NCBI RefSeq assembly: GCF_900109365.1 | Contig: NZ_FNZR01000002.1 | Span: forward strand, 186,001-250,000 | From: Parapedobacter koreensis | GTDB lineage: Bacteria; Bacteroidota; Bacteroidia; Sphingobacteriales; Sphingobacteriaceae | Direction: 5' to 3' | Length of the DNA: 64,000 bases | Shown here: positions 38,916-59,827 of the stretch, one piece after another | How the letters are laid out: the number at the start of each line of letters is the position of its first letter | Numbering within the stretch: position 1 is the stretch's first letter | Position numbers and translations under genes: made by a program | The notes under the pieces: model-generated | What the model was told of the DNA's origin: nothing | Seen by the model: only the letters and a program-made list of their open reading frames with translations | Databases searched by the model: none

Positions 38916-39104
38916 AATCCTTTATTTCCGGCCAAAATGCCTTGATCGCCAGTTAAGTGTCCGAAGATATTTCTATTATTGCGGTGGAAATATGAAAAAT
39001 TTTGATTGAAAAAATTCATCAACTCCTGATAGCTGTTCCTTGTAAAAGTAATGTCTTAATTTTCATTGTTTTTTCATCGCTTCATTCGTTTAGTCAGCAT
39101 AAAC

Positions 39105-43569: not shown

Positions 43570-43609
43570 TCACTTGTGTCTTCAGAAATTTCACCCTGCT
43601 AAATTCAAT

Positions 43610-45343
43610 ATGATGTACATGCCCAAGCTCCCGTTATTCTTCTTTTCAATCGGCTTTTTTTTAGTTAGCTCCTTGGTCATTACACTTTTAGGTGCTTCAA
43701 TCACCTTTTTCCTCGGGGGAACGATAAACGGTTGGTTATTCCCGCTTGCTGTCCTAATCTCATTGGGTTTAAGTTATGGTTTTTTTGTCAACTATATTGG
43801 AACAGCTACACTCCGCAGTGTTTTGTTTTATGTTCTTCTCCTGCTTTTGCCCTTAATACTGGCCCTCCTTATCTCGAGCTATTTTTACGACGTTTCCGTC
43901 GATGGCCAAGCCTATCACCAGGAAGCGCTCATTCAACTAAAGCAAGGCTGGAATCCTTACTGGCAATATTTGCCGGACAGTGTCAACCAGGCGATATGGG
44001 TAAATCATTACGCCAAAGGCATGGAAACCATCCAAGCGGCAATCTATTGCACGTTTCATGACATCGAAGTGGGAAAGGCGACGAACATGGTGCTTTGGAT
44101 AGGGAGTTTTTTCCTGACCTTGTCTTTCCTTTCTCAAATCGAGTCTATCGGGTTAAAAAAAGGAATATTGATCAGTGGATTGCTGGCAAGCAGCCCAACC
44201 GTGCTGAATCAATTGCTCACCTATTATGTAGACGGCGCACTGGCATCTTCGTTATTGATACTGTCGGTATTATGTGTTTATATCATCAAAAAAGCAACTA
44301 CTTTTCATTTGCTTTTGTTGTCATTGATCATCATCCTATTGATAAATATCAAATTCACGGGGATATTATATGTGTGCCTATCACTGGGCGGTTTTTTACT
44401 TTGGCTGCTTGTCAAAAAATCTTTTCCTGCTCTAAAGAAGTTATTACTGGTGTCTGTTATTGCTGGTTTTGCCGCAATTGTCGTGGGGTATAATCCATAC
44501 GTTACCAATTCGATAAAATACCACCATCCGCTGCATCCCTTAATGGGCAGCGCCCGCGTAGACATCATGAAAGATCTAAATACGCCCGCCGGGTTTAATG
44601 GTAAGTCGGGGCTTGAACGTTTCTTGCTATCGACTTTTGCGCATACAAATAACCTCTTCCCTTCGTCGGAAGAAAAAGGCATTCCATTGAAAGTCCCCTT
44701 TACATTCAACAAGATTGATGTGGTAAATGCTGCGCGGGTTGACGCACGGCTTGGGGGCTTTGGGCCATTCTTCAGCGGTATATTACTGCTATCGTTGGGA
44801 TTGTTTTGCATTCTTTTTGTCAAAGCAAGGAATCAGGCGATCTTCAACTATTTGGTATGGTTCATCGCGTTGATTATCCTGTCCGTCATTATCATGCCGG
44901 AATCTTGGTGGGCAAGGTATGTGCCGCAATTTTGGTTCATCCCGCCCGTATTGCTCCTTGCGGGCGAATTGCTGCTCAAGAACCAATATACAATCCTAAA
45001 AAGGTTGATTTATGCTTCGGGTATACTAAACATGATGTTCAGCTTAATCGGCATCTTCTTTAACATCACCTTGACCGAACTCATTAAGTATGACCTTGAT
45101 GTCTTCAAAGCTTCTGGAAAAACTGTTGTCGTAGACTGGCAAGGGTCGGCGAGCAACCGTATTCGGTTTATCGAACGCGGGATACCCTACGAGGAGCAGG
45201 ATTTAGACGAAGCTACGCACCACGGCATGACTGGTTCGGAAGCGTTGTTTATCAAATCTGAAGAGATGGACAACACGGCTATCCAAAAGTCCGTTTGGCT
45301 AAGGCTAACGGAAAAATGGCTGCCGAATACATGGCGTTATTGA
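43610..45343 (+). CDS. GT-C-like polytopic membrane protein, paralogue A
   Basis: About 577 residues with roughly a dozen hydrophobic segments and a soluble tail. The first outer loop carries VDGQAYHQE with the acidic residue expected of GT-C transferases, followed by WNPYW and INHYAKGMETIQAAIY-like VNHYAKGMETIQAA. Later blocks are GYNPYVTN, HPLMGS, RFLLSTF, PESWWARYVPQFWFIP and a tail motif SASNRIRF...GIPYEEQ. These blocks recur in the three proteins at 45361, 47739 and 49471. A lipid-linked sugar donor is inferred from the GT-C layout; no named family fits. The ATG at 43610 replaces a TTG at 43574. Confidence 0.75.
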   Translation: MMYMPKLPLFFFSIGFFLVSSLVITLLGASITFFLGGTINGWLFPLAVLISLGLSYGFFVNYIGTATLRSVLFYVLLLLLPLILALLISSYFYDVSVDGQAYHQEALIQLKQGWNPYWQYLPDSVNQAIWVNHYAKGMETIQAAIYCTFHDIEVGKATNMVLWIGSFFLTLSFLSQIESIGLKKGILISGLLASSPTVLNQLLTYYVDGALASSLLILSVLCVYIIKKATTFHLLLLSLIIILLINIKFTGILYVCLSLGGFLLWLLVKKSFPALKKLLLVSVIAGFAAIVVGYNPYVTNSIKYHHPLHPLMGSARVDIMKDLNTPAGFNGKSGLERFLLSTFAHTNNLFPSSEEKGIPLKVPFTFNKIDVVNAARVDARLGGFGPFFSGILLLSLGLFCILFVKARNQAIFNYLVWFIALIILSVIIMPESWWARYVPQFWFIPPVLLLAGELLLKNQYTILKRLIYASGILNMMFSLIGIFFNITLTELIKYDLDVFKASGKTVVVDWQGSASNRIRFIERGIPYEEQDLDEATHHGMTGSEALFIKSEEMDNTAIQKSVWLRLTEKWLPNTWRY

Positions 45344-45360
45344 CATAAAGGTTAATACCA

Positions 45361-47124
45361 TTATTGCCCTATCCCTCCCCAAGGCTTGAGCTTGATTCTA
45401 AGTCCGCCCAACAACCTCAGGATGACCGGGGGCGTTAGTTCCCTGTTGATATTTTCAGGCGGCAAAAACCGGGCTTCCGAACGAATGATCCATTCGCCCA
45501 CGCTGTCGTTTTCAAAGGATTGCTGTATATAGGGAATCTCATGCTCCTGGAAACGGATGCGATTACTCGCGGATTTCCTGAAATCAATAACAATAGGCTG
45601 GCTTGTATCTTTAAGGATAGCCAGCTGGTGGTTGATCTGGCTGGTAATAACGATGTTCTGAACAATCGCCGAAAAGGCAAAAATCACATTGGCAGCGAGG
45701 GTTGTATATACCGCAAACTTGAGCACCTTATGCTTACCGGGCAGTAACCATTCACTTGTAACCAGCAAGATAATTGGAATAAACCAAAATTGCGGCACAT
45801 ACCTTGCCCACCAGGACTCTGGTATAATGACAATGGTTACAACCAGGGTGATGATTATAGAAAGTATGTTTTTAAACCTTCTTTCTTTACGGCATTGGAT
45901 AGCAAGCAGGATAAACAATAGGATAGCAAGTATCACTATACCGCTGAAGAACGGCCCAAAACCCGCTACCCTTGTATCTACTTTGCCCGAATTGACGATA
46001 TCTACCTCATTAAGCGTGAAGGGAACTTTCAATACCGGTTTTCCGCCGGTTTCCATGATGGCATTATCCGTATGGGAAAAAAGGGAAATAAAAAACCGCT
46101 CTGCGGGGGATCGCTCCCCAAAGGTCGCAGGCGAATTGCGCGTCATGATATCCACTTTTTTGGACCCCATCAAGGGATAAAAGGGATGCCCAAAATTGAG
46201 CGTATTGGTAACATACGGATTAAACCCCGCCAGGATGCCCAATACAACTCCAGAGACAAAGCCAACAATGAGAATTTTATGGCTTTTCAGCTTCTTATGG
46301 AATAATAGCCAGCAAAAAACCGCCGCCATCAGCATGGCCATATAAACCACTGCAGTAAATTTTATGCCAAAAGCGAGCGTGATAATCACGACTATCAACA
46401 GATAGTGCATCCATTGTTTTTCCTTCAATGCCAGTATAGTAGCCGCGATAAAAATCAGGAAAATAGATCCCAAGACGCCATCCACATAATACGTCAGCGC
46501 TTGGACTATGACCACGGGGTTGCAGGTCAGCAATATGCTGGTTATCCACGCCTTAGGCGTTGAAATTTTGGGCACGAGTATGGATAACGAAAAAAATAAG
46601 CCTGCAACGATAAGCAGCAGATTGGTAGCCTTCCCCGTTTCTATCCTTCCGGTCGTCGCATAGATGGCAGCTTGGATGGTTTCCATGCCTTTGGCATAAT
46701 GATTTATCCAAATCGAATGCGTCGTAATGCTGTCATCCAGTGCTGTCCGGTAGGGATTCCAACCTTGCCTAAGCTGAATGATTGCCTCCTGGTGGTACTC
46801 CTGCCCGTCTTCGGATATATCATAAAACTGACCTGAAATAAGGATGGCCAGCAAGACAAACAGTACGGATGCGCCCAGCGTATAATATTTGCCCTTAATC
46901 TCAGCGGTGCCCATCCATTGGGATCGAAACAAGATATAGGCATTTATGCCTGTAGCGACAACCAATGCCAGGGGAAACTGCCAACGTCCGACGTGACCAT
47001 CCAGGAAAAAGGTAAGCGACAGGATGACCAGGGTCAGGCCAAGCACGAGCATCAAAAAAAAGCCAATCAGAAAATAGTGTTTTGCTAAGCCACTTGCTTT
47101 ATCCATTGCCTTTATTCTTATCAT
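45361..47124 (-). CDS. GT-C-like polytopic membrane protein, paralogue B
   Basis: A 587-residue membrane protein of the same family as paralogue A, which it faces tail to tail (17-nt gap). Shared blocks: SEDGQEYHQE in the first outer loop, INHYAKGMETIQAAIY, GFNPYVTN, HPFYPLMGS, RFFISLFSHT, PESWWARYVPQFWFIP and SASNRIRF with EIPYIQQ in the soluble tail. It differs from the others by D/E usage around the loop and by a longer C-terminus. It is the last gene of the minus-strand run and follows the HAD phosphatase gene by 36 nt. Confidence 0.75.
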   Translation of the reverse strand: MIRIKAMDKASGLAKHYFLIGFFLMLVLGLTLVILSLTFFLDGHVGRWQFPLALVVATGINAYILFRSQWMGTAEIKGKYYTLGASVLFVLLAILISGQFYDISEDGQEYHQEAIIQLRQGWNPYRTALDDSITTHSIWINHYAKGMETIQAAIYATTGRIETGKATNLLLIVAGLFFSLSILVPKISTPKAWITSILLTCNPVVIVQALTYYVDGVLGSIFLIFIAATILALKEKQWMHYLLIVVIITLAFGIKFTAVVYMAMLMAAVFCWLLFHKKLKSHKILIVGFVSGVVLGILAGFNPYVTNTLNFGHPFYPLMGSKKVDIMTRNSPATFGERSPAERFFISLFSHTDNAIMETGGKPVLKVPFTLNEVDIVNSGKVDTRVAGFGPFFSGIVILAILLFILLAIQCRKERRFKNILSIIITLVVTIVIIPESWWARYVPQFWFIPIILLVTSEWLLPGKHKVLKFAVYTTLAANVIFAFSAIVQNIVITSQINHQLAILKDTSQPIVIDFRKSASNRIRFQEHEIPYIQQSFENDSVGEWIIRSEARFLPPENINRELTPPVILRLLGGLRIKLKPWGGIGQ

Positions 47125-47160
47125 TCATTAACCATTAGGCATACAAGGCACTCCTGCCGG

Positions 47161-47775
47161 CTAAAAAGTCCGGTAAAACGGGTGATCTGCCGCTGCCAAT
47201 AATTCCCGGTCTCCTTCGGTATCACCATATGCGTACAATTCATAGCTATCCCTATCCGGATATTGTTCCAAAAACCTACTTAATTTTTCCGGCCCATAGC
47301 AATTCCGTGATAAAAATTTACCCGTGATTAAGCCATTGTGAACTTCAATTTTCGTGGCAAGAACGTGCTGGATCCCGTTTTTGACGGCCCATGGGATTAT
47401 CCAGTTTGCGATGGAAGCACTAATGATGACGACTTCGTGTCCCTGCTTAAGATGCCAATTCAATTTTGCAACGGCTTCAGGACGGAGTATTTTCGTCAAC
47501 TTCTCCGCAAAAGCCACACAACGCCTGTCAAATGCTTCGATGGGCACTCCTTTATAAAAATTGCCGAATAGTTTTTCTTTCGCTTTGTAATTTGGGATGA
47601 GATGAAGTTTATATCCCACCAGGTACAATGAAGATGCAACGGCATTTGCCATTAACCTGAAAAAGCCGATTCTAAACAATAAAAAGAGCAGTAAGCTGTC
47701 TTTTGTAGTAATCGTGCCGTCAAAATCAAAAGCGGCAATTATTCTTCTATTCCCGGCAATGTTCCCGTTGTCCAT
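47161..47775 (-). CDS. HAD-IB family phosphatase
   Basis: A 204-residue HAD-superfamily hydrolase, subfamily IB (phosphoserine-phosphatase-like). The nucleophile motif DFDGTIT contains D17 and D19, the second motif is VVIISAS, and YGDTEGDRELL is the acidic magnesium motif. Between them is a helical cap typical of HAD-IB members. It overlaps the GT-C gene before it by 37 nt. In this locus it is a good candidate for dephosphorylating polyprenyl-phosphoryl-5-phosphoribose made by the neighbouring UbiA protein (inference), a role filled by a different phosphatase type in mycobacteria. Confidence 0.87.
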   Translation of the reverse strand: MDNGNIAGNRRIIAAFDFDGTITTKDSLLLFLLFRIGFFRLMANAVASSLYLVGYKLHLIPNYKAKEKLFGNFYKGVPIEAFDRRCVAFAEKLTKILRPEAVAKLNWHLKQGHEVVIISASIANWIIPWAVKNGIQHVLATKIEVHNGLITGKFLSRNCYGPEKLSRFLEQYPDRDSYELYAYGDTEGDRELLAAADHPFYRTF

Positions 47776-49451
47776 TTTATGATGAGTGGTATTTGTATGC
47801 TATCTATATTATCAGGGACTATAAATCTCGAAGTTGATCGTACGATGCCCACCGCACCCGCGACTCCCTCCAAATCTTGCTCGATATAGGGAATATCATT
47901 TTCCCAAAAACGGGCACGATTGCTTGATGCGCTGCCCCATTGCACTACTATCGGTTCATTGGCCGATTTCAATACACGAAGCTGGTAGTTAATTCGGCTG
48001 GTAACCGCCAAATTCCAAAGTATGCCCGTCAGCGTGAATCCAACATTCAACAGCAGCAGTATATAGAGGGATCGATTGAACCACCTCAACCGGTTCGGTT
48101 GGACGGCATCTGCAGCTAAAAGGATAACAAGGGGAATAAACCACAATTGCGGCACATACCTTGCCCACCAGGACTCGGGAATAATGACGACAGACAAAAC
48201 CAGCACAAGCAAGAGGTACCCCATGTTTCGGACCAGGCGCCCGCCATGGAATTTGACGACAAGAATGCCAAACAAAACTATCGCCAATAAAAGTATCCCA
48301 CTGAATAATGGGCCAAACCCACCGATGCGTACATCCACTTTGGGGGCACTGGCAATATCGGTCTTGTTAAACGTAAACGGTATTTTCAGCTTAGGAACCC
48401 GGCCATTGTCCAGCATCACATTGTCTGTGTGCGAAAATAGCGATATAAAAAACTTTTCGGAACCTGATTTTTCGTCGAAGCTGACGGGCAGGTTAGCCGT
48501 CATGATATCCACTTTGTTTGGGCCCATAAGGGGGTAAAACGGATGCCCGTAGCCTACTGTATTTGTAACATAAGGGTTGTAGCCCGCCACGACAGCGAGC
48601 GTGACCGCGACTGCCGATACACCGATTACTTTTTTCATCGCGCCCCAGTTTCGATGGATCACAAGCCAGCCAATAAACATTGCCGTAAACAAGGCCACGT
48701 AAACAACCGCGGTGAATTTCACATTGAACGCGAGCACAAAGACGGCAGCATAAAGGAAATAAACTTCCTTCGTAGCTATCCCGCCTCTGGCAATGAAAAA
48801 AAAGGTAGCCAGCAGGCAGAGCAAAAGCGAGGCCAGTGCGCCATCCACGTAATAGGTCAGCAGTTGGTTGATCACCACTGGATTACTCGCCAGCAATGCC
48901 GAAACAACCAATTTTTTGAAGAATGAATGCCACTGAAATTGACAAAGCAGGGAGAGCACCAAAAAGAAACTGCCCAGCCACAACAGGATATTTGTCGCCT
49001 TACCTGCCTCGATGCTGCCAATGGCACAATAAATAGCCGACTGGATGAGCTCCATTCCCTTGGCATAATGACTGATCCATATCGCTTGGTTGACACGCTC
49101 AGGCAATGGCCCATCCCAATACGGGTTCCAACCCGCCTTTAGCTGAATCAAGGTTTCTTGATGATAGGCTTGGCCATCATGCGAAACATCATAAAAGCTA
49201 TTTGCTATCCCTATCGAAAAAACGATTAGCAATAGGGGTACCGCAACGCGATAAACCAATAGATCACGTTTGCGCTCGTGCGCGGTTTTCGCTGTCGCTA
49301 CCACCCCTACCAGGCAAATCAATACCGCAAGCGGGAATTGCCAGGCACCTACCTGCGCACCAACCAGCAACGTCAATGACGATAAAAGCAGGGTGAGTAC
49401 GAGAACCCCAATCAATTGAAAACCAATGTTGAAAAAACGCGACGCTAACAT
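47739..49451 (-). CDS. GT-C-like polytopic membrane protein, paralogue C
   Basis: A 570-residue paralogue of the same family: SHDGQAYHQE (D92), ISHYAKGMELIQSAIY, GYNPYVTN, HPFYPLMGP, RFFISLFSHT, PESWWARYVPQLWFIP, and SASSNRARF with DIPYIEQ in the tail. The tail motif is the most diverged of the four (SSNRARF). It overlaps the HAD gene downstream by 37 nt and lies 19 nt after paralogue D. Membrane segments and loop acids are conserved, so all four are expected to work the same way on different acceptors or donors (inference). Confidence 0.75.
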   Translation of the reverse strand: MLASRFFNIGFQLIGVLVLTLLLSSLTLLVGAQVGAWQFPLAVLICLVGVVATAKTAHERKRDLLVYRVAVPLLLIVFSIGIANSFYDVSHDGQAYHQETLIQLKAGWNPYWDGPLPERVNQAIWISHYAKGMELIQSAIYCAIGSIEAGKATNILLWLGSFFLVLSLLCQFQWHSFFKKLVVSALLASNPVVINQLLTYYVDGALASLLLCLLATFFFIARGGIATKEVYFLYAAVFVLAFNVKFTAVVYVALFTAMFIGWLVIHRNWGAMKKVIGVSAVAVTLAVVAGYNPYVTNTVGYGHPFYPLMGPNKVDIMTANLPVSFDEKSGSEKFFISLFSHTDNVMLDNGRVPKLKIPFTFNKTDIASAPKVDVRIGGFGPLFSGILLLAIVLFGILVVKFHGGRLVRNMGYLLLVLVLSVVIIPESWWARYVPQLWFIPLVILLAADAVQPNRLRWFNRSLYILLLLNVGFTLTGILWNLAVTSRINYQLRVLKSANEPIVVQWGSASSNRARFWENDIPYIEQDLEGVAGAVGIVRSTSRFIVPDNIDSIQIPLIIKWTTGTLPGIEE

Positions 49452-49470
49452 AAACCTATCACCTAAAACG

Positions 49471-51228
49471 CTAATAATGTTGCCACCGTAAGGGTATCCA
49501 ATGCTCCGTGAGCCTGAGCCACGGTGATTTTGTTATCGACCGATCCGCATCGTCGGGCCATATAAACATCGCTTGAGAGCCCGCTATTTTTTCCACTCGG
49601 GCTCCCTCTTCGCGTAATTTCAATAAATTCTTTTGCTCGTGAAACGGGATGCCACGGTCATCGAAACGAATCCGGTTGCTCGCCGAATCACCCCATTCCA
49701 CGACAATCGGTTGGTTGGATGAAGCCAAAACTTCCAGTTGGTAATTGATTTTGCTCTTCAGTATCGCATTCAACAAAAAGCCTGCAAAACTGAATCCGAT
49801 ATTCAATACAAGGGCTACATATAGGCATCCCTTCAGCAACCGGTAGTTTCCGGGCAAAAGCAACTCCGATCCAAGCAATATCGCTATGGGCACAAACCAA
49901 AAATGGGGGACGTATCTCGCCCACCAGGATTCCGGCATGATGATTAATGATACAATGGTGATTGCGATAAACCCCATGATGCCGTAAAAAACCGGCTTAT
50001 TCCTTCCCTTGGGGTATTGGATAGCCAACAATGCGATTGCGAGCAGCAGGATTCCACTAAAGAATGGGCCAAAACCACCCAGGCGGCAATCCACTCGTGG
50101 CGTACTGATGATTTCGCCCTCGTATACAGTAAAGGGGATTTTTAGCTTCGCAATACCAACGTCCCAAGGGTACACGATTTCAGTACGCGAAAAGAGGGAA
50201 ATGAAAAACCGCTGCAATTCGGATTTCCCTTCAAAGTCCAATGGTGTATTGATAACCATAATATCCACCGGATCTTTACCCATCAATGGATAGAACGGAT
50301 GCCCATAGCCTACCGTGTTGGTGACATAGGGATTATACCCAACCACCAGCGATAGGATCCCTATAGCAACAGCTGCCAGTAGGAACATCTTGAAAACGGG
50401 CCATTTTTTTTGGAACGCCAACCAAAGTAAAAATCCCCCAACAATAAATACCACATATACAATGGCCGTGAATTTTACATTGACAATCAAGATGACGATA
50501 AACGCAAACAACAGCAGGAGCCGCCGTTCAAGGCGGTACAAGAAGCAGATACCCGTTGCCAGCAAGGCCAACAACAACGATGCGAGAACGCCATCTACAT
50601 AGAAGGTAATCAATTGATTCATCACAACGGGGTTGCTCGCAAACAGCGCCCCCAAAAGCACCGCCTGTTTTAAGGACAGCCAACCCATATAACCAATACA
50701 GGATACGACAAGGGAGAAACTCCCCATCCACAGCATCATGTTCGTCGCCTTACCCGCTTCTATTGTACCAGAAGCAGCATATATGGCGGCCTGTACGGTT
50801 TCCATCCCCTTAGCATAGTGGTTTATCCAAATCGCCTGGTTTACACGTTCGGATAACGGGGCATCCCAGTAGGGATTCCATCCATTTGCCAATTGAATGA
50901 CGGCCTCTTGGTGGTAAGCCTGGCCATCGTAAGATACGTCATAAAAACAAGCAGAAACCAGTAAAGACAATAGGACCAGCAGCAACGGAACACCAACTGT
51001 GGCCACATATGAGCGCCGTGAACTTCCCCGCGTATTGACGCCGCGCTGTAAATAGTGGCTTGAAAGGATAGCGAAAAGAATGGCTACCGGGAATTGCCAA
51101 AAGCCGATGCTCCCCCCGAGATAAAAGGTGACACTCGAAAGCAGCAACGTAAAACCAAGCACCGCGATAAGGAAATATCCCAGGTGAAAAAAGGTTTTTG
51201 AATACCCGTAAGCCCGGTCCACTACCAT
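49471..51228 (-). CDS. GT-C-like polytopic membrane protein, paralogue D
   Basis: A 585-residue paralogue: SYDGQAYHQE, INHYAKGMETVQAAIY, GYNPYVTN, HPFYPLMGK, RFFISLFSRT, PESWWARYVPHFWFVP and SASNRIRF with GIPFHEQ. It overlaps the end of the UbiA gene by 7 nt, showing direct operon linkage with the proposed lipid-pentose pathway. The four proteins differ most in segments between conserved blocks, where acceptor specificity would be expected. Confidence 0.75.
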   Translation of the reverse strand: MVVDRAYGYSKTFFHLGYFLIAVLGFTLLLSSVTFYLGGSIGFWQFPVAILFAILSSHYLQRGVNTRGSSRRSYVATVGVPLLLVLLSLLVSACFYDVSYDGQAYHQEAVIQLANGWNPYWDAPLSERVNQAIWINHYAKGMETVQAAIYAASGTIEAGKATNMMLWMGSFSLVVSCIGYMGWLSLKQAVLLGALFASNPVVMNQLITFYVDGVLASLLLALLATGICFLYRLERRLLLLFAFIVILIVNVKFTAIVYVVFIVGGFLLWLAFQKKWPVFKMFLLAAVAIGILSLVVGYNPYVTNTVGYGHPFYPLMGKDPVDIMVINTPLDFEGKSELQRFFISLFSRTEIVYPWDVGIAKLKIPFTVYEGEIISTPRVDCRLGGFGPFFSGILLLAIALLAIQYPKGRNKPVFYGIMGFIAITIVSLIIMPESWWARYVPHFWFVPIAILLGSELLLPGNYRLLKGCLYVALVLNIGFSFAGFLLNAILKSKINYQLEVLASSNQPIVVEWGDSASNRIRFDDRGIPFHEQKNLLKLREEGARVEKIAGSQAMFIWPDDADRSITKSPWLRLTEHWIPLRWQHY

Positions 51229-52115
51229 TTCAGATTATAATAAATGATGGCAAAGAAAGACAATATCCATCCCAGGATAATCACTTGCAAAAACCTGTTT
51301 TTCAGCAATACGGCGGTAGGGCTCCCGCTAATCAACCATACAAACGTCAATTGGAGGTACCTCAGCATGCCCAGGATAACAAAGAAGGAGGTCAAATAGA
51401 CATTCTTCCCAAAACGGTTGATGACTTCTTCTGACGTACAATACATGACATAGCACACGACAACGACCGTAGCCATACACGTTATCGCTACGTTGAGGAA
51501 TTCCAAATTGTACCCCTGCAAGTTCTTCCTTGGGCTGACCCCCGTCCTGACAAAGTTGAACACATCGTCCCGCCGCTTGGCCAACGCAAGAAACAGCGCC
51601 AATACAAACGTCATCAAGATAATCCAATGGGAAAGCACCGTGTCAGAAATCAGTCCGCCCAATGCAATCCGCAATACAAATCCCACGGCGATTATCACGA
51701 TGTCCAAAATTGAGATGTGCTTAAGTTTAATGGTGTACAGCACATTCTGCACCAAATAAAGCAGCACGATCAGCAGCACCAATGGATCCTGGATGAAAAA
51801 CAAAAAGATGGATAGCCCAATCGCCAATAACACACCAATTAAACCAATTCCCTCAGCCGTCGAAACAAGGCCGCTGGCAAGCGGTCTATTTCGTTTTACA
51901 GGATGCAGTCTATCTTCTTTGACATCCAACATGTCATTGAATACGTATACCGAGCTGGCTATTAACGAAAAGCCGATAAACGACACCAGCAATTGCAGCA
52001 CCACATGGGTATCGGTAAGCTTTAGTGAAAAGAAGGCTGGCAGGAAAATAAAACTATTTTTTACCCACTGGTTTACACGGATTAGTCGGAGGTAGGAAAG
52101 TAATTTTTTCATCAT
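51222..52115 (-). CDS. UbiA-family polyprenyl-phosphate phosphoribosyltransferase-like protein
   Basis: A 297-residue polytopic prenyltransferase-fold protein. The two Asp-rich motifs are N60-D61-x-x-D64-x-x-x-D68 (NDMLDVKEDRLHP) and YTIKLKHISILD (127-138). The pattern NDxxDxxxDxxHPxKxxRPxAsG followed by LKxxxxxD and FVLRIALGG is that of decaprenyl-phosphate phosphoribosyltransferase (Rv3806c type, which uses PRPP as donor), distinct from quinone or haem branches. It is expected to form polyprenyl-phosphoryl-5-phosphoribose. The gene lies between GtrA-like and GT-C genes. The start may be Met1 or Met2. Confidence 0.85.
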   Translation of the reverse strand: MMKKLLSYLRLIRVNQWVKNSFIFLPAFFSLKLTDTHVVLQLLVSFIGFSLIASSVYVFNDMLDVKEDRLHPVKRNRPLASGLVSTAEGIGLIGVLLAIGLSIFLFFIQDPLVLLIVLLYLVQNVLYTIKLKHISILDIVIIAVGFVLRIALGGLISDTVLSHWIILMTFVLALFLALAKRRDDVFNFVRTGVSPRKNLQGYNLEFLNVAITCMATVVVVCYVMYCTSEEVINRFGKNVYLTSFFVILGMLRYLQLTFVWLISGSPTAVLLKNRFLQVIILGWILSFFAIIYYNLKW

Positions 52116-52174
52116 GAATAGAAGTCTGAATACAATAGGCGTTTATGAATAAGCAAAATAATGCATTGGGATTA

Positions 52175-52570
52175 TCACTGTTTAAATACCAAATATTTCT
52201 TAGTGCTGAAGTTAAATATCGCGACAATGATAATCGTCATCGCTTTTCCCAGTTGGATGTTGGTGATAAGGGCTTGTTCGACAAAAAGCCACAAAATCAA
52301 TTGATTTAAGGCAATAGCCATCAATGAAAACACCACAAATGATATCACTTCCATCGATCTGGAATACTTGCTTTTTTGAAACACGTACTTCCTGGATAAC
52401 ACATAGTTCAGGATAATTGCTATCACCACCGCGATTACATTAGCAATGAGGTAATCGATAGCCTGGATATGGACCAGGAAACTAAAGACACCGAACTCAA
52501 CCGCCGCGCAGCATAAACCGACGATGACAAATTTTGTTAGTTGATATTTAAAAACTAGCTTGAGGAACAT
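52175..52570 (-). CDS. GtrA-like membrane protein
   Basis: A 131-residue protein with four transmembrane helices and the GtrA-family pattern (KFVIVGLCCAAVEFGVFSFLV, ANVIAVVIAIILNYVLSRKYVF, FNFSTKKYLVF). GtrA proteins are proposed to flip or assist transfer of lipid-linked sugars; Rv3789, the mycobacterial member, acts in decaprenyl-phosphoryl-arabinose use. It sits 4 nt after the GMC oxidoreductase gene and 59 nt before the UbiA gene, which supports a lipid-linked pentose pathway here. Confidence 0.9.
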   Translation of the reverse strand: MFLKLVFKYQLTKFVIVGLCCAAVEFGVFSFLVHIQAIDYLIANVIAVVIAIILNYVLSRKYVFQKSKYSRSMEVISFVVFSLMAIALNQLILWLFVEQALITNIQLGKAMTIIIVAIFNFSTKKYLVFKQ

Positions 52571-52574
52571 AAAA

Positions 52575-54275
52575 TTATAAATTTCCTTTTTTTAACTGAT
52601 TGACTGCAAAACTACAAGCCCTTGCGGTCAGTGCCATGTACGTGAGTGAAGGGTTTTGGTTGGCAGAGGAAGTCATGCAACTACCATCCGTAATGAAAAC
52701 ATTTTTGACTGCGTGCATCTGGTTATATCCATTCAAGACGGAAGTTTTCGGGTCTTTCCCCATCCGCGCCGTTCCCATTTCATGCACGGTAGCCCCCCCC
52801 GGCTTTTCATAATTAAACGCGTTGACCTGTTGGAATCCGGCTTCCTCCAACATCCCGGCGCAGGTTTCCTTGATGTCATCCATCATGCGATACTCATTTT
52901 CTTTGAAAGAAAAGTTGACTTCAACGAGCGGCAGCCCCCATTTATCCTTACGTGTCGTACTCAATTGCACTTCATTATCATAATATGGCAGGCACTCTCC
53001 CCATCCGGCCATCCACACCGTCCATGGGCCCGGCTTGGTCAGTTTTTCCTTAAATTCGCTGCCAAATCCTTTTATGTTGGGCGATGTACTTTTCCACCCT
53101 TGCCTTTCGCCCCTCCCCTGTACGGCATACCCCCTGATGAATCCATTTTTTTCCGTGGCGGATAGATTGCGGTAGCGCGGAATTAAAAAGCCGCAAGGTC
53201 TTCTTCCTTTATAATAGCGATCTTCAAATCCGTCATGGATGCCAAAGGCACCAGCCGAAGAGTGGTGATCCATTAAGTTGTGCCCTACTTGCCCACTGTC
53301 ATTGCCAAGCCCATTTGGAAACCTATCCGTGCGCGACTGCAATAAAATCGCTGCTGTACCGATGGTGGATGCATTGATAAAAATAACGTTCGCGTAAAAT
53401 TCCGTGACCTCATGCGTCAACGCATCGATGACGCGGACGCCCGTTGCCCTGTCCGCCTGTTCATCATGGAGCACTTCCGCGACGATGGAGAAGGGCCTAA
53501 GCGTCAGATTACCCGTGGCCATGGCTGCCGGAATGGTGGCGCTATTGCTGCTAAAATACCCCCCATAGGGACATCCCCTGGAGCAAAGATTACGATTGAG
53601 ACAGGGCCCCCTGCCATCCCAGCCACGAGTAAGGTTGGCCACGCGCGCTATGGTAAGCAATCGATGCTCATGGTTATTTTTAATCGATTGTGCTAAATGC
53701 TTTTCGATGCAATTGAGTTCCATAGGTGGCAGGAAGTTACCGTCTGGCAAGTGCGGTAGCCCCTCGTTTTTCCCACTGACGCCAATGTAAGACTCCACAT
53801 AATCATACCAAGGTGCAATATCCCGGTAACGTATTGGCCAATCTACCGCTGTGCCATCCTTTTCATTCGCTTCAAAATCCAAGTCGCTGAGCCGGTAACA
53901 TTGCCTACCCCACGTCAACGACCTTCCCCCTACCTGGTATCCCCTAAACCACATAAACGGTTTCTTTTGGATATAGGGATGATCTTGGTCATTTGCGAAA
54001 AAAAGCATGTCGGTATCGTCAGAAACGTTGGTCTGCACCGGGTTGTTTTGCTTATAGGCAAGTGGGACATTGCCCCTGAGTTTGAAATCCCAAGGATTGA
54101 GCAATGCCGTAGGGTAATCCTTGATATGTTCGACATTCCTTCCCCGTTCAAGCAGCAATGTTTTTAATCCTTTGAGGCAAAGCTCACGTGCAGCCCACCC
54201 GCCACTGATGCCGGAGCCGACAACAATGGCATCATAGGTATTGCTCATTTTAGCTTTTCCAATTAAATTAGACAT
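52575..54275 (-). CDS. GMC-family FAD oxidoreductase
   Basis: A 566-residue flavoenzyme with the dinucleotide motif GSGISGGWAA near residue 22, GYQVGGRSLTWGRQC as the flavin-attachment and GMC signature region, CSRGCPYGG (possible Fe-S or structural Cys), and VHEMGTARMG with NPSLTYMALTARA at the C-terminus carrying the catalytic His. Family members oxidise alcohols of sugars and polyols. The product of the gene upstream is a gluconate-2-dehydrogenase-subunit-3-like protein, the usual partner of this GMC type, suggesting a membrane-bound dehydrogenase. In this cluster it could epimerise or oxidise the lipid-linked pentose (inference). A second ATG at 54248 is possible. Confidence 0.88.
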   Translation of the reverse strand: MSNLIGKAKMSNTYDAIVVGSGISGGWAARELCLKGLKTLLLERGRNVEHIKDYPTALLNPWDFKLRGNVPLAYKQNNPVQTNVSDDTDMLFFANDQDHPYIQKKPFMWFRGYQVGGRSLTWGRQCYRLSDLDFEANEKDGTAVDWPIRYRDIAPWYDYVESYIGVSGKNEGLPHLPDGNFLPPMELNCIEKHLAQSIKNNHEHRLLTIARVANLTRGWDGRGPCLNRNLCSRGCPYGGYFSSNSATIPAAMATGNLTLRPFSIVAEVLHDEQADRATGVRVIDALTHEVTEFYANVIFINASTIGTAAILLQSRTDRFPNGLGNDSGQVGHNLMDHHSSAGAFGIHDGFEDRYYKGRRPCGFLIPRYRNLSATEKNGFIRGYAVQGRGERQGWKSTSPNIKGFGSEFKEKLTKPGPWTVWMAGWGECLPYYDNEVQLSTTRKDKWGLPLVEVNFSFKENEYRMMDDIKETCAGMLEEAGFQQVNAFNYEKPGGATVHEMGTARMGKDPKTSVLNGYNQMHAVKNVFITDGSCMTSSANQNPSLTYMALTARACSFAVNQLKKGNL

Positions 54276-54302
54276 CGCTCAATTTGAATAAGGATGATGG
54301 CA

Positions 54303-54878
54303 CTAATTAGTTGCCCATACCCGTTGACTTTCCCCCATCGCTATGCACGACTGATAATGCACAGGAATATAATCGTATGCCAATCCCATGGTGGCCCCAA
54401 GTTCTGACGTACAATACCCTTCAACAACCAGGGATTTCAATGTCACAATAAACGGCTCTCCAAAAAACAGCCTATTTAACTCGCCGATTAGCGGCATGCG
54501 ATAAGTTGCTTTCGCTTCTAAATGATTAAGCACCGAAACCCTATCTGTCATCCCACATTCAATAAACGCTTGATGATAGGTAGCCCTGCAATAGTCATCC
54601 ACCTCCGCTAAGCCTGCCAAAAACCGGCGCTGCCGACTGGTATCAAAACATGCATCTACCATATTAACAACAAAATCTGCGACATTGGCCTCCGCCGCCC
54701 CGGGCGATTCGGTTTTTGGGATAATTGTATCTGCCAAAATTGCTATTGTTTCTCTTTTTAAATGCAAAGCAGCTAAGTTTACCTTTTGGCGGGTGCGTAT
54801 CCATTGAAAAATTGAAAAAGAAGAAACCGTTGCCAAACCGATAGTCACTGCATACTTAATATATGTTCTTCTATTCAC
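54303..54878 (-). CDS. Gluconate 2-dehydrogenase subunit 3-family protein
   Basis: A 191-residue protein that begins with a signal or anchor (YIKYAVTIGLATVSSFSIF) preceded by NRR, possibly twin-arginine-like. The body, with ETIAILADTIIPKTESPGA, VADFVV and MPLIGELNRLFF, matches the gluconate 2-dehydrogenase gamma-subunit family that pairs with GMC-type flavoproteins and can carry them across the membrane. The GMC gene follows after 27 nt. It is the first gene of the long minus-strand run reaching to 45361. Confidence 0.87.
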   Translation of the reverse strand: MNRRTYIKYAVTIGLATVSSFSIFQWIRTRQKVNLAALHLKRETIAILADTIIPKTESPGAAEANVADFVVNMVDACFDTSRQRRFLAGLAEVDDYCRATYHQAFIECGMTDRVSVLNHLEAKATYRMPLIGELNRLFFGEPFIVTLKSLVVEGYCTSELGATMGLAYDYIPVHYQSCIAMGESQRVWATN

Positions 54879-55997: not shown

Positions 55998-57089
55998 ATG
56001 ACAAAAAATCATCAAAATCAAAAGCGTATACTTTGGATTGACTATGCAAAGTTTATCGGCATTAGCCTGGTGGTGTGTGCTCACCAGACCGACAGGGATG
56101 GTTGGTTTACCTTTATCTCGGCATTTACGCTACCCTTATTTTTCTTCTTGTCAGGCTATTTATTTTCCTTCAAAAAATTTGACAGCTATGCTTCTTTTCT
56201 AAAAGCTCGCACCAAGCAGCTACTCATCCCCTATTTTCTTTTAAACCTAATCGCTTATGCGCTTTGGCTAGTTTTCTTCAGGAAATTTGACGAAAATTTT
56301 GCGATCAGCCAACCTTCATACAGGCCATTCATTGGAATATTCTATGGCAACGGGCACGATAGCTGGCTGATACATTGTGTGGCCTCGTGGTTTATCATCT
56401 GTCTATTTACGTTGGAAAACATCTATTTCCTGCTATTTAGGAACGCAAAAGGCGCATTCCGGTTTATACTATTGGCCGGTATTTTTATCGTCTCCTTGCT
56501 GGATCAAAAATATGACCCGATAAGATGGCCTTGGGGTTTTAATCCAGCTATCATTGGTTTGATATTCTACGGAACCGCAAATATCCTCAAAGAAGAGACA
56601 CAACGAATCATGAATCTGCCCTTGCCCAGATTGATTGCGCTATCGGTGCCCTCCCTGCTTGTTGTATACTTCGTTTCTACAAGAAATTATGTAGATATGC
56701 TTGAAAGTACTTACGGCAATTTTTACCTGTTCATCATAGGCGCATTTTCAGGAATTTTATTTGCTTTGACATTAAGCCGTATGTTGGATATCGTATTGGG
56801 TCCTGTCTGGGTTTTCCAGTATCTAGCGCAAAACACATTGGTTATCCTTGCCTTCCACACCTTCCTGATAAGTCTTTCAAGGAATTTTATTGCATTGGCG
56901 TTTGATATTCCCAGTGCCGTCGTTATACATAGCAGGTACCTCAGCCTTATCGTTGTAGCAGCCACCTTGGCACTGTCATTACCGCTCATACATTTGTGCA
57001 ACAAATATTTGCCCATCATGGTTGGAAGGCCTTATAAGCCGAAACAACAGCTATTTAGGAGGCCCCAAGAAATTATCTCCCAATCCTAA
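55998..57089 (+). CDS. Acyltransferase family 3 protein, tandem copy 1
   Basis: A 363-residue polytopic acyltransferase-3 (OatA/NolL-like) protein with about ten transmembrane segments. The N-terminus LWIDYAKFIGISLVVCAH carries the catalytic His of the first helix loop, and FFLSGYLFSFKKF is the family's second signature. Such enzymes O-acetylate or O-acylate exported glycans. A clear AGGAG ribosome-binding site lies 3-7 nt before the ATG. It is followed after 27 nt by a very similar copy, so the locus carries two acyltransferases, possibly for different sugar positions. Confidence 0.9.
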   Translation: MTKNHQNQKRILWIDYAKFIGISLVVCAHQTDRDGWFTFISAFTLPLFFFLSGYLFSFKKFDSYASFLKARTKQLLIPYFLLNLIAYALWLVFFRKFDENFAISQPSYRPFIGIFYGNGHDSWLIHCVASWFIICLFTLENIYFLLFRNAKGAFRFILLAGIFIVSLLDQKYDPIRWPWGFNPAIIGLIFYGTANILKEETQRIMNLPLPRLIALSVPSLLVVYFVSTRNYVDMLESTYGNFYLFIIGAFSGILFALTLSRMLDIVLGPVWVFQYLAQNTLVILAFHTFLISLSRNFIALAFDIPSAVVIHSRYLSLIVVAATLALSLPLIHLCNKYLPIMVGRPYKPKQQLFRRPQEIISQS

Positions 57090-57116: not shown

Positions 57117-58220
57117 ATGGCGAATACATCCGTTACCAAAAATTCAAAACGCATACTTTGGATTGATTATGCAAAGTTCATAGGCATCACCCTCGTCGTA
57201 TGTGCTCACCACACGGGCAGGGGGAATTGGTTTGCCTTCATCTCAGCGTTTGCCCTGCCTTTGTTTTTTTTCTTGTCGGGCTATCTGTTTTCCTTCAAAA
57301 AATTCGACAATTACACCGCGTTCTTGAAGGCTCGAACCAAGCAGTTACTTATTCCTTATTTTATCCTAAATTTTGTAACGTATATTCTTTGGTTGTTTTT
57401 CTTCAGAAGGTTTGATTACCATTATGTCATATCGGAGCCTTTATACACCCCATTTATCGGGATATTTTATGGCAATGGACACGAGGATTGGCTAATACAT
57501 AGCATTGCTTCCTGGTTTATTATTTGCCTGTTTGTCTTGGAAAATATTTATTTTCTTTTGTTCAGAAACGTGACTGGAGCACGGCGTTATGTGTTATTGG
57601 CAGGAATCCTTGCCGTTTGTTTCATTGATCAAAAGTATGATCCCATTAGGTGGCCATGGAGCTTAAATATCGCCATCATCGGGATAGTATTCTACGGCGT
57701 CGCGAACATGCTGAAAGAAAACGTCAATAAAATCATGGCGCTTTCTTTGCCAAAGCTAATAACGCTTTCGGCATGTTCCGGATTCCTACTGTACGTTATT
57801 TCTTCACGGAACTTCATAGACATGAACAAAAGCACGTATGACAGTTTTACCCTGTTTTTTATGGGTGCCTTTTCGGGAATCCTCTTCGCTTTGACATTGA
57901 GCCGGGTACTGGAAATGTTGTTGGGCCCCGTTTGGCTGTTCCAGTATTTAGCACAGAACACATTGGTCATCATTGCTTTCCATCTGATGGTCATGAGTGT
58001 TGTCAAAAAGGCCATTTCAATGGCTTTTCAGATCCCGGATGATTTGCTTACAGACAACCTGTATTTGAATTTTACGGTCGTGGCGGCGACGCTACTGCTC
58101 TCGTTGCCGATCATTTATATATGCAACAAATACCTCCCTGTGATGGTGGGAAGGCCCGCTAAACCGAAACAACGCGACGCCGCGGCGCCACAAGTCATCA
58201 GCAACTCGCAAACGGTTTGA
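57117..58220 (+). CDS. Acyltransferase family 3 protein, tandem copy 2
   Basis: A 367-residue protein highly similar to its upstream neighbour: LWIDYAKFIGITLVVCAHH, FFLSGYLFSFKKFDNY, ARTKQLLIPYF, PFIGIFYGNGHEDWL and ASWFIICLF are almost unchanged. The C-terminal quarter differs more. The pair is a tandem duplication that has diverged in loops, consistent with new acceptor or acyl preference. It converges on the GH-A lipoprotein gene with a 2-nt gap. Confidence 0.9.
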   Translation: MANTSVTKNSKRILWIDYAKFIGITLVVCAHHTGRGNWFAFISAFALPLFFFLSGYLFSFKKFDNYTAFLKARTKQLLIPYFILNFVTYILWLFFFRRFDYHYVISEPLYTPFIGIFYGNGHEDWLIHSIASWFIICLFVLENIYFLLFRNVTGARRYVLLAGILAVCFIDQKYDPIRWPWSLNIAIIGIVFYGVANMLKENVNKIMALSLPKLITLSACSGFLLYVISSRNFIDMNKSTYDSFTLFFMGAFSGILFALTLSRVLEMLLGPVWLFQYLAQNTLVIIAFHLMVMSVVKKAISMAFQIPDDLLTDNLYLNFTVVAATLLLSLPIIYICNKYLPVMVGRPAKPKQRDAAAPQVISNSQTV

Positions 58221-58222
58221 AC

Positions 58223-59827
58223 TTAAAGCCCGGGCACACCGATTGGTTCCACGAACACGGGCGTTTCAGTGACGTGGATTTTTAGTTTTCCGGCGACGAC
58301 GTCTTCAATGCGCACAGCCATTTTGTCTTGGCCTACTTGCAAGGTATATATCTTCACTTTTTCCGCCTCGGGCATTTCCAGTTCATGGTCTACTTCCCTA
58401 CCCTGCTCGTCCGGCACCATCAATACATACATCCTTTTATCATCCAATGCATAGACATCCACGATTGGATCGCTGTTCAGCGTGTGCAAGTATGCATATT
58501 CACCCATCAATTCGTTTGCTTGCAAGAAATAATCTGCAGCGGGCTTCCTTTCCGACCCCTGCACAAAACCGGAAGATGAAAATTGGATTGAACTGCGGAT
58601 GTCCACATCATTCAGCATATAAAAATGCAACCGCTTAATTCCATGTCTGGCATAAAGTAGGCTTGAACGCAGCGACCAATCCGCATGGGTAATCAACGGG
58701 CTTTTATCCTTTATTTTCAGCGTTCTTAAAGGACTCTTTTTATTCACGTCGTATCCCAGTTCCGTTATCCAAACGGGTGTCCCATTGGCCTCTTCCTTAG
58801 CCAGGCTTACTACCTTTATCGCCGCTTCAGCAGCACTGGATCGTTCGGGAGCCCTGCCACGGGTGCCCTTCGCAAACAAATCTTCATTCGAAAAAGAATA
58901 ATGGTGGTAATTAATCACATCAAAACATAAATTTACCGTGCCATCTTCCTTTAACCCCCGATTCACACGGCACCATTCGATCATTTTCGAAAGGTAATCC
59001 ACGTCGCCTTTCGTCAATCCCCCCATGACCACCTGCATTTCCGGATCGGCATTCTTCACCCCTACACCGGGGCCTAATTGGCCAAGATGCCCATCATAAA
59101 ATGCGGAAAGATTGGCTGCATATTCTTCGGCTGTCTGATGTGCATTTTCGCCTTTCCATGTCCTATCGGGTTCATTATTGCATTCGATATACGTTACCAG
59201 GCCCAGCCCGATTTTCCGCTGGTTGGGGCTCCATGCCGGATCGGGCGATACAGAGACCAAGCCAGTGTCTACCTGCGCATTGTGGCCATACCGTGCGGCA
59301 AACTGAAATCCCAATTTGGCAAATTGCCTATATGAAGCCGGATCCGCCTTATCCTGCCCATAGGGCAAAGGCGCGTTCTCATAATCGTCTTCGCCTTCGG
59401 GATACGTGGCCCGCAGCCAGTCCGGTATTGTTTTGAGGCAAACCAGTACAGGGATGCCATTGGTTTTGCACCATTGGTAAATATCATCATACCCCCAGTT
59501 GCCGTTTAAAGACGGTTGATAAGCGTATACGTTTTCTTCCGTCTCTATTCGATTCCAATCCAGGTAATGCCTGAATCCGCCAAACGGCTTTATTAATGCG
59601 GTTTTTTCCGCATCGATTTCATTATTTTCATTCAAAAACTCCCACTCAAAGCCATTGATTCCCAGCATATCTTTGAATTTGATACTGCTGATGGTATCAG
59701 CAGCTGGTGGAGCAACATAATCCGTATCTATCGGCGTCCCCTTCCGTTCCGAGCATTGTATATGATAAATGCCAAAGCACAATGCCAGCAATGCGCTGCT
59801 CATCCGATTTAAGCGAAAAATTTCCAT
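58223..59827 (-). CDS. Clan GH-A-type glycoside hydrolase-like lipoprotein
   Basis: A 534-residue lipoprotein: signal ending FGIYHIQC, then a linker. A TIM-barrel-type domain follows (GGFRHYLDWNRIE, PVLVCLKTIPDWLRAT). IECNNEPDRTW shows the NEP motif with the acid/base Glu, and WITELGYD the likely nucleophile Glu, both diagnostic of clan GH-A. A C-terminal beta-rich domain (from about residue 440) is usual for GH39-like enzymes. The exact GH family is uncertain. It probably trims or turns over the locus's own glycan at the cell surface. Alternative start at Met9. Confidence 0.82.
   Translation of the reverse strand: MEIFRLNRMSSALLALCFGIYHIQCSERKGTPIDTDYVAPPAADTISSIKFKDMLGINGFEWEFLNENNEIDAEKTALIKPFGGFRHYLDWNRIETEENVYAYQPSLNGNWGYDDIYQWCKTNGIPVLVCLKTIPDWLRATYPEGEDDYENAPLPYGQDKADPASYRQFAKLGFQFAARYGHNAQVDTGLVSVSPDPAWSPNQRKIGLGLVTYIECNNEPDRTWKGENAHQTAEEYAANLSAFYDGHLGQLGPGVGVKNADPEMQVVMGGLTKGDVDYLSKMIEWCRVNRGLKEDGTVNLCFDVINYHHYSFSNEDLFAKGTRGRAPERSSAAEAAIKVVSLAKEEANGTPVWITELGYDVNKKSPLRTLKIKDKSPLITHADWSLRSSLLYARHGIKRLHFYMLNDVDIRSSIQFSSSGFVQGSERKPAADYFLQANELMGEYAYLHTLNSDPIVDVYALDDKRMYVLMVPDEQGREVDHELEMPEAEKVKIYTLQVGQDKMAVRIEDVVAGKLKIHVTETPVFVEPIGVPGL

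Follow-up and report, generated by a model that had tools for sequence, protein, structure and literature searches.

A probable extracytoplasmic ribofuranosylation cassette in a surface-polysaccharide locus of Parapedobacter koreensis

A stretch of 64,000 nucleotides from Parapedobacter koreensis (contig NZ_FNZR01000002.1, positions 186,001 to 250,000; hereafter the window) contains, in and beside one minus-strand run of genes (Table 1), what is probably an extracytoplasmic ribofuranosylation cassette of the three-component type, here in four parts, inside a surface-polysaccharide locus. The proposal draws on gene content, homology, kept site residues, the model fold of one GT-C glycosyltransferase and conserved gene linkage. 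From these we infer every catalytic step of the cassette, as well as its lipid, sugar, linkage and acceptor. A UbiA-family protein would load ribose 5-phosphate from phosphoribosyl pyrophosphate (PRPP) onto polyprenyl phosphate, and a HAD-IB phosphatase would strip the 5'-phosphate from the lipid-linked ribose phosphate. A GtrA-like protein would then carry polyprenyl-phosphate-ribofuranose to the periplasmic face, where four related GT-C proteins would transfer ribofuranose to distinct sites or acceptors within the polysaccharide encoded by the flanking genes. UbiA, GT-C and the HAD phosphatase are the likely core, and GtrA is the likely flippase.

The UbiA protein has as its best NCBIfam model the decaprenyl-phosphate phosphoribosyltransferase NF008977, and its top PDB sequences are two Rv3806c entries (E 1.7e-37 for 8j8j and 8.7e-29). 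Thirteen Rv3806c positions were mapped onto it through the PDB alignment and checked by alignment. PMC10994848 describes eleven of these as contacts to PRPP, Mg or lipid; D74 and D81 were added as counterparts of aspartates mutated in PMC11127046. The window protein has the Rv3806c residue at eleven of the 13 positions (R22, K28, Y70, N73, D74, D77, D81, K87, R90, Y138 and K143), as do all 15 proteins of UbiA alignment A2. Homology and site residues thus place it among the predicted UbiA-superfamily polyprenyl-phosphate phosphoribosyltransferases (PPPRS) of three-component pentofuranose addition systems, and it would make polyprenyl-phosphate-ribose-5-phosphate from PRPP. In favour of another reading, the UbiA family is wide, Bacteroidota are known to have an aromatic UbiA-like enzyme (UbiA-297 of the ebo cluster, PMC9235831), and some GT-C loci, counted below, have no nearby UbiA gene. 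Even so, an ordinary or aromatic prenyltransferase, with the GT-C proteins using another polyprenyl-phosphate sugar, seems very improbable. K28 and Y70 are kept in 15/15 A2 rows. Of the 13 residues, the genome's other four UbiA-family proteins retain 6, 5, 8 and 3; none of them has K28 and one has Y70. The phosphoribosyltransferase models score highest by far, and a phosphatase gene and a GT-C gene often lie alongside. An aromatic prenyltransferase (EboC/UbiA-297) identity for the protein was rejected on its residues and context.

A UbiA protein 50% identical to that of the window is encoded in a 6.6-kb "Bacteriophage sp." record from human faeces (MT837543.1:4874-5740), which may be mis-binned host DNA.

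The HAD-IB protein matches PF12710 (122.9 bits) and TIGR01490 (128.1 bits, above the cut-off of 98.3) and carries the DxDGT motif. Its gene stands beside UbiA and GT-C in relatives too. The GtrA gene lies upstream of UbiA likewise in L055, L057, L061 and L127.

The GT-C proteins form, by sequence comparison, a family without Pfam or NCBIfam assignment. Both Pfam matches of GTC1 are below threshold (PMT_2, 20 bits against 26.1; DUF6057, 15.7 against 29.8), the remaining three have no Pfam match, and one GT-C other than GTC1 gives a weak NCBIfam match (17.6 bits, cut-off 100). The GT-C profile found no relative in the PDB at E 0.1. GTC3 is 50, 49 and 43% identical to its three paralogs, and GT-C matches in the genome are confined to this locus. 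An AlphaFold model of GTC3, built with 51 sequences, reached a predicted local distance difference test (pLDDT) value of 93.7 and a predicted template-modelling (pTM) score of 0.94. Foldseek returned nothing below E 0.001 for this model, the top rows being ALG12, AftA, ALG9 and PimE. In VIA-align, where unrelated helical models can score as high as Z of about 13-14, the best match was ArnT (Z 17.8, 404 residues, 5.7 A), and AftD (15.4), AftA (12.8), AftB (10.7), EmbB (9.8) and Pmt4 scored lower. The GTC3 model, itself of high confidence, has an ArnT/Aft-type fold, which confirms for this paralog the GT-C call of the sequence-only reading. From the fold of one paralog and the linkage described below, a GT-C-fold enzyme is encoded together with the predicted PPPRS. 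ArnT is the undecaprenyl-phosphate-aminoarabinose transferase (PMC11127046); it shares the fold of the GTC3 model at 10% identity, but has another donor and acceptor. Thirteen residues are invariant in all 51 GT-C rows (D97, K160, P200, Q205, D212, K252, G297, P365, G387, W435, W436, R438 and P441), and D101 (50 rows), Y105 (50), H137 (45) and Y439 (48) are nearly so.

The linkage was surveyed in 399 genomes of the same family. The counts are lower bounds, taken from the top 3 candidates per genome for GT-C and GMC and the top 6 for UbiA; the survey listed three of the window's four GT-C proteins, and the Fisher tests ignore kinship. GT-C is present in at least 11 genomes, UbiA in at least 26, and both in 8 (Fisher p = 1.5e-8). 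Three of the 11 (G072, G214 and G382) have weak matches, with E about 1e-60 and the UbiA gene not alongside. In all seven relatives with UbiA and a strong GT-C match (L025, L055, L057, L059, L061, L062 and L064), the genes for UbiA, GT-C and HAD directly follow one another, in this order. The sequence-only reading had asked for a co-occurrence check and had named scattering of the genes in relatives as a refutation; the core proved to be kept together. The GtrA gene and the GMC pair join the core only in L055, L057 and L061 among the seven, the GMC pair there being encoded on the other strand. The remaining strong GT-C matches are solo copies, in L054, L056, L058, L060 and L063. In the GT-C tree, GTC1 pairs with the solo copy from L058; those from L054, L056 and L060 group with GTC3 and GTC4 (deep forks excepted). 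Of the window proteins, GTC2 best matches the GT-Cs that lie in the operons of the seven relatives.

A GTDB scan extended the comparison, with the best 80 of 162 GT-C relatives kept (L118-L197; L189 gave no GT-C open reading frame (ORF) yet is counted in the 80). UbiA (threshold 120 bits) lies within 4 kb of GT-C on the same strand in 51 of these best 80 loci. At E 1e-4, with few-seed profiles for HAD, DUF212, SMR and GtrA, a phosphatase gene was found in 49 of the 51 (HAD in 12, DUF212 in 37). An SMR-type or GtrA gene is also present in 44 of those 49 (37 SMR with DUF212, 2 SMR with HAD, 5 GtrA with HAD); the rest of the 51 are five with HAD alone, one with SMR only and one with none of these genes. 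The UbiA/GT-C linkage spans three phyla, which we take from the organism names. Across many genomes the GT-C and the phosphoribosyltransferase therefore stay paired, whereas the phosphatase and the flippase differ from one to another. Chance neighbourhood was rejected, since UbiA is found in 26 of the 399 family genomes yet beside GT-C in 51 of the 80 GTDB loci. The lipid-linked pentose pathway put forward by the sequence-only reading was partly supported: its UbiA, HAD, GtrA and GT-C set looks like such a pathway, but the GMC oxidation step, to which we return below, found no support.

In Bacillota (Brevibacillus, Paenibacillus, Pelosinus), genes for UbiA, an SMR-like protein, DUF212 and GT-C form one row in 37 of the best 80 loci, for example L148:5804-9443 and L156:6156-9710 (Pfam names from example proteins, SMR/EamA-like). 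The arrangement suggests that DUF212 (divergent PAP2) may be the lipid-linked ribose-5-phosphate phosphatase there. After GT-C follow a DUF4127 protein in Pelosinus (L156:9679-11259) and a 758-aa protein without Pfam match in Paenibacillus (L148:9596-11872), each a possible acceptor-related partner.

The identity of the pentose depends on the oxidation and epimerisation genes. The mycobacterial decaprenyl-phosphoryl-arabinose (DPA) pathway comprises Rv3806c, Rv3807c, DprE1/DprE2, Rv3789 and Emb/Aft. The window shares with it a homologous first enzyme (11/13 checked residues) and GT-C acceptor enzymes; it differs in that no DprE1 was detected in the genome, the phosphatase is of another family and ribose is predicted. 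Among the best 80 GT-C loci, no DprE1- or DprE2-like protein exceeded 80 bits (one-sequence profiles each; DprE2 was sought in those neighbourhoods only). With the DprE1-like protein of L030 as a genome-wide query, the best match in the eight cassette genomes was 23-32 bits; three DprE1-type genomes gave 457, 465 and, for the genome of L030 itself, 1023 bits. The window genome has no DprE1-like protein above 31 bits; its three FAD_binding_4 proteins lie in open frames of 985, 500 and 349 aa. Within these searches (DprE1 across the eight genomes, DprE2 around the 80 loci) the DprE1/DprE2 pair of a mycobacterial-type pathway was not found. Because the genome search returned no DprE1-type oxidase and the run holds no epimerase gene, ribose rather than arabinose is predicted, and ribofuranose is the likely product sugar; the arabinose and xylulose options of the earlier reading gave way to it. 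Xylofuranose or arabinofuranose could still arise through an epimerase whose gene lies outside this run, as a single short-chain dehydrogenase/reductase (SDR) converts ribose to xylose in such a system of Citrobacter youngae O2 (PMC11127046). We regard this as unlikely given the DprE results and the lack of an SDR or epimerase gene in the run, a statement that covers the run only, since unlinked GalE-like or ribose-to-xylose SDRs elsewhere in the genome were not searched for.

DprE1-type clusters do exist in Bacteroidota. In L029, L030, L033 and plasmid CP139022.1, a UbiA protein 42-46% identical to that of the window is coupled with a DprE1-like FAD oxidoreductase. The L030 protein scores 422 bits to the NCBI DprE1 model (cut-off 500), and CP139022.1 is annotated with a decaprenyl-phosphate phosphoribosyltransferase, an FAD-binding oxidoreductase and an SDR. 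Like the window, L029, L030 and L033 have HAD-IB beside UbiA, with an SDR-sized gene in the cluster; unlike it, they contain the DprE1-like protein and, in the stretches read, no ORF similar to the window GT-C. Among the ten loci first read (L025-L034), these three showed DprE1-like proteins and L028, L031, L032 and L034 were unsettled. In L026, UbiA has no DprE1-like or similar partner, and in L027 its 500-aa neighbour has no Pfam match.

Several observations weigh against a ribofuranosylation cassette. The UbiA score lies just under the NCBIfam equivalog cut-off (217 against 234 bits), and N stands in place of Q135, and F in place of Y157, in the window protein as well as in every one of the 15 A2 rows. 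The HAD-IB protein has no PDB relative at E 0.001, and the breadth of its family means that sequence does not fix the substrate. No GtrA gene adjoins the core in four of the seven relatives, so a different flippase must act there. Twenty-nine of the best 80 GT-C loci (some ending at contig ends) have no UbiA inside 4 kb, so the GT-C family may use other donors. Finally, 18 family UbiA loci without GT-C, viewed over about 1.5 kb around the gene, comprise 10 with DprE1, 4 with HAD only and 4 with neither; since 8 of the 18 are without DprE1, its lack near UbiA is not peculiar to the cassette.

The sequence-only reading had assigned the GMC dehydrogenase to the oxidation step: with its exported partner it would oxidise lipid-linked ribose in the manner of DprE1, giving arabinose or a keto-pentose. 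The pair belongs to the same tight run, with 4 bp between GMC and GtrA, and neighbours the cassette in three relatives. The GMC protein matches the fructose dehydrogenase structure 8k6k (E 7.7e-35), and the Tat (twin-arginine translocation)-like start of the subunit-3 partner was seen by eye in the N-termini of three orthologs. GMC orthologs, defined as rows at 66-73% identity (the next row is at 63%), occur in at least 55 of the 399 family genomes, window included. Fifty of these are without this UbiA gene and 27 have neither UbiA type; GMC and UbiA meet in 5 of the 55, with no enrichment (Fisher p = 0.38), and in G319 they are about 0.6 Mb apart. Four genomes with GMC beside the cassette were set aside, and 20 loci were read from the other 51, mostly the best-scoring ones plus three of the window's genus. 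The UbiA/GT-C/HAD cassette is absent from all 20. In 18 of them three or more marker genes of the polysaccharide locus in the window recur, whereas two (L111 and L114) share only the 477-aa "PL" gene with it. Four of the seven relatives with the core have no adjoining GMC, the run has no reductase gene, and the Tat-like partner suggests a periplasmic enzyme. A conserved association of GMC with the UbiA gene was not found. On this distribution, the 20 loci and the missing reductase we rejected GMC as the oxidation step, which we hold to be quite improbable. Since 20 of 20 other loci read are without the cassette and 18 are of the same locus type, the GMC/subunit-3 pair probably serves the polysaccharide locus as a periplasmic dehydrogenase separate from the cassette. 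We conclude that the ribofuranosylation cassette appears to have been inserted into a polysaccharide locus that owns the GMC pair.

A further link between UbiA and GMC proteins was found in Pedobacter relatives. A second UbiA-like protein (L061:15824-16825) occurs in 29 of the 399 family genomes, in or near the same loci, and keeps 10 of the 13 checked Rv3806c residues in all 29. Another GMC-type gene directly follows it in 24 of the 29, and in 26 its neighbours include a PMT_2-type GT-C like the one in L061; in L061 a 143-aa protein with a Tat-like start comes after that GMC gene. The set was seen at L061:14138-18721, and also at L057:1338-3884, L108, L109 and L230-L258. The second UbiA-like gene co-occurs with the first GMC in 25 of the 29 genomes (p = 1.7e-20), which favours a GMC oxidation step; this correlation may reflect kinship, most of these genomes being of one genus. 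The family genome search found no second UbiA-like gene in the window genome. It is possible that the second set is a lipid-linked sugar system using a GMC dehydrogenase, and the GMC idea thus stays alive for another system. There is a small chance that exported GMC dehydrogenases oxidise lipid-linked or polymer-bound ribofuranose in the periplasm, as a counterpart of the DprE1 step, with the window as one case. The UbiA-like/GMC/Tat-peptide operon of Pedobacter relatives (L061:15824-18721) would be a clearer case for such oxidation than the window.

The nearest described system is that of Citrobacter youngae. Kelly et al. 2024 established by mutants, nuclear magnetic resonance and in vitro assays that alpha-ribofuranose is added in O1 by a GT-C (GT136) together with a PPPRS that has a HAD domain, the MATE-family flippase being only predicted; in O2 an SDR turns ribose into xylose, and the paper notes Xanthomonas and Bacillus systems with multiple candidate epimerases or GT-Cs (PMC11127046). 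The window resembles O1 and O2 in its PPPRS (PRPP-dependent activity predicted here), candidate HAD phosphatase, proposed small flippase, GT-C and polysaccharide locus, and the ribose type O1 in having no epimerase in the run. It differs in that HAD is a separate protein and not fused, the flippase candidate is of the GtrA type (SMR/EamA-like in Bacillota relatives) and not MATE-family, and there are four GT-C paralogs, in Bacteroidota. Only about 80 residues follow the last long helix of the GTC3 model, where C. youngae ORF12 has a carbohydrate-binding module (503-652). D97/D101, Y105, H137 and R438-Y439 of the GT-C proteins recall D31, Y35, H106 and R349-Y350 of ORF12 (GT136), a comparison made by eye from the published description (PMC11127046); the acidic residue just past a helix, near the start of the ArnT-aligned part, and the R-Y pair are likewise GT136-like by eye only. 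By analogy, the window seems to work like the C. youngae system, as a variant with an unfused HAD, a GtrA-type flippase and another GT-C set.

A 2022 study reported no decaprenyl-phosphate phosphoribosyltransferase in the Flavobacteria genomes examined (PMC9235831); unlike those, other Bacteroidota here plainly encode proteins of this type. PMC full-text searches returned no lipid-linked ribofuranose system in Bacteroidota or Pedobacter, no polyprenyl ribofuranose in Paenibacillus and nothing on gluconate 2-dehydrogenase subunit 3 with GMC; for decaprenyl-phosphate phosphoribosyltransferase in Bacteroidota they gave only the ebo paper, and nothing that tied such an enzyme to arabinose in Bacteroidetes. 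The earlier statement that no such Bacteroidota pathway had been described is uncontradicted in the literature searched, but the same logic was published in 2024 for Citrobacter (PMC11127046). Our findings point to PRPP-derived pentose glycosylation of Bacteroidota polysaccharides. In at least three phyla an unassigned GT-C family keeps company with a phosphoribosyltransferase, whereas the phosphatase varies between HAD and DUF212 and the flippase between the GtrA and SMR types; this linkage gives a donor prediction for the unnamed family. A simple rule can be offered, in which presence or absence of the DprE pair predicts arabinose or ribose; the eight family UbiA loci with neither GT-C nor DprE1 speak against a strict form of it.

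Table 1. Genes of the run and the adjoining fourth GT-C gene (window positions)
Feature	Position	Strand	Basis
Gluconate 2-dehydrogenase subunit 3-like protein	54303..54878	-	PF13618, 97.8 bits; Tat-like N-terminus MNRRTYIK (by eye)
GMC oxidoreductase, fructose-dehydrogenase-like, 566 aa	52575..54275	-	PF05199 and PF00732
GtrA-family protein, 131 aa, proposed flippase of polyprenyl-phosphate-ribose	52175..52570	-	PF04138, 84.5 bits
UbiA-family PPPRS (predicted), 297 aa	51222..52115	-	PF01040
GTC3, GT-C transferase, 585 aa	49471..51228	-	AlphaFold model, fold comparison
GTC2, GT-C transferase, 570 aa	47739..49451	-	Alignments; adjoins HAD as in relatives
HAD-IB phosphatase, 204 aa, proposed 5'-phosphatase of lipid-linked ribose phosphate	47161..47775	-	PF12710, TIGR01490
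GTC1, GT-C transferase, 587 aa	45361..47124	-	Alignments, tree; PMT_2 below cut-off
GTC4, GT-C transferase, 589 aa, convergent with the run, beyond the reported interval	43574..45343	+	Alignment, tree

Coordinates and Pfam and NCBIfam matches agree with the gene set listed by the sequence-only reading (UbiA, HAD-IB, GtrA, GMC with subunit 3, three GT-Cs and a fourth beyond). From 54878 to 45361 the order is subunit 3, GMC, GtrA, UbiA, GTC3, GTC2, HAD-IB and GTC1. Calculated from the coordinates, the intergenic gaps are 4, 19, 27, 36 and 59 bp, and UbiA/GTC3 and GTC2/HAD overlap by 7 and 37 bases. This spacing is compatible with a predicted single transcription unit.

Ten flanking proteins were scanned with Pfam, giving GT87, GT2, GT8, GT group 1, acyltransferase and hexapeptide transferase matches, so that the surroundings of the run look like a polysaccharide locus. 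Two were matchless: 39066-40499 ("PL", 477 aa) and 58223-59827 ("GH39") have no Pfam match, and their labels are shorthand only. At 55998-57089 and 57117-58220 lie neighbouring acyltransferase genes that are closely alike by eye, the first of which was scanned as Acyl_transf_3.

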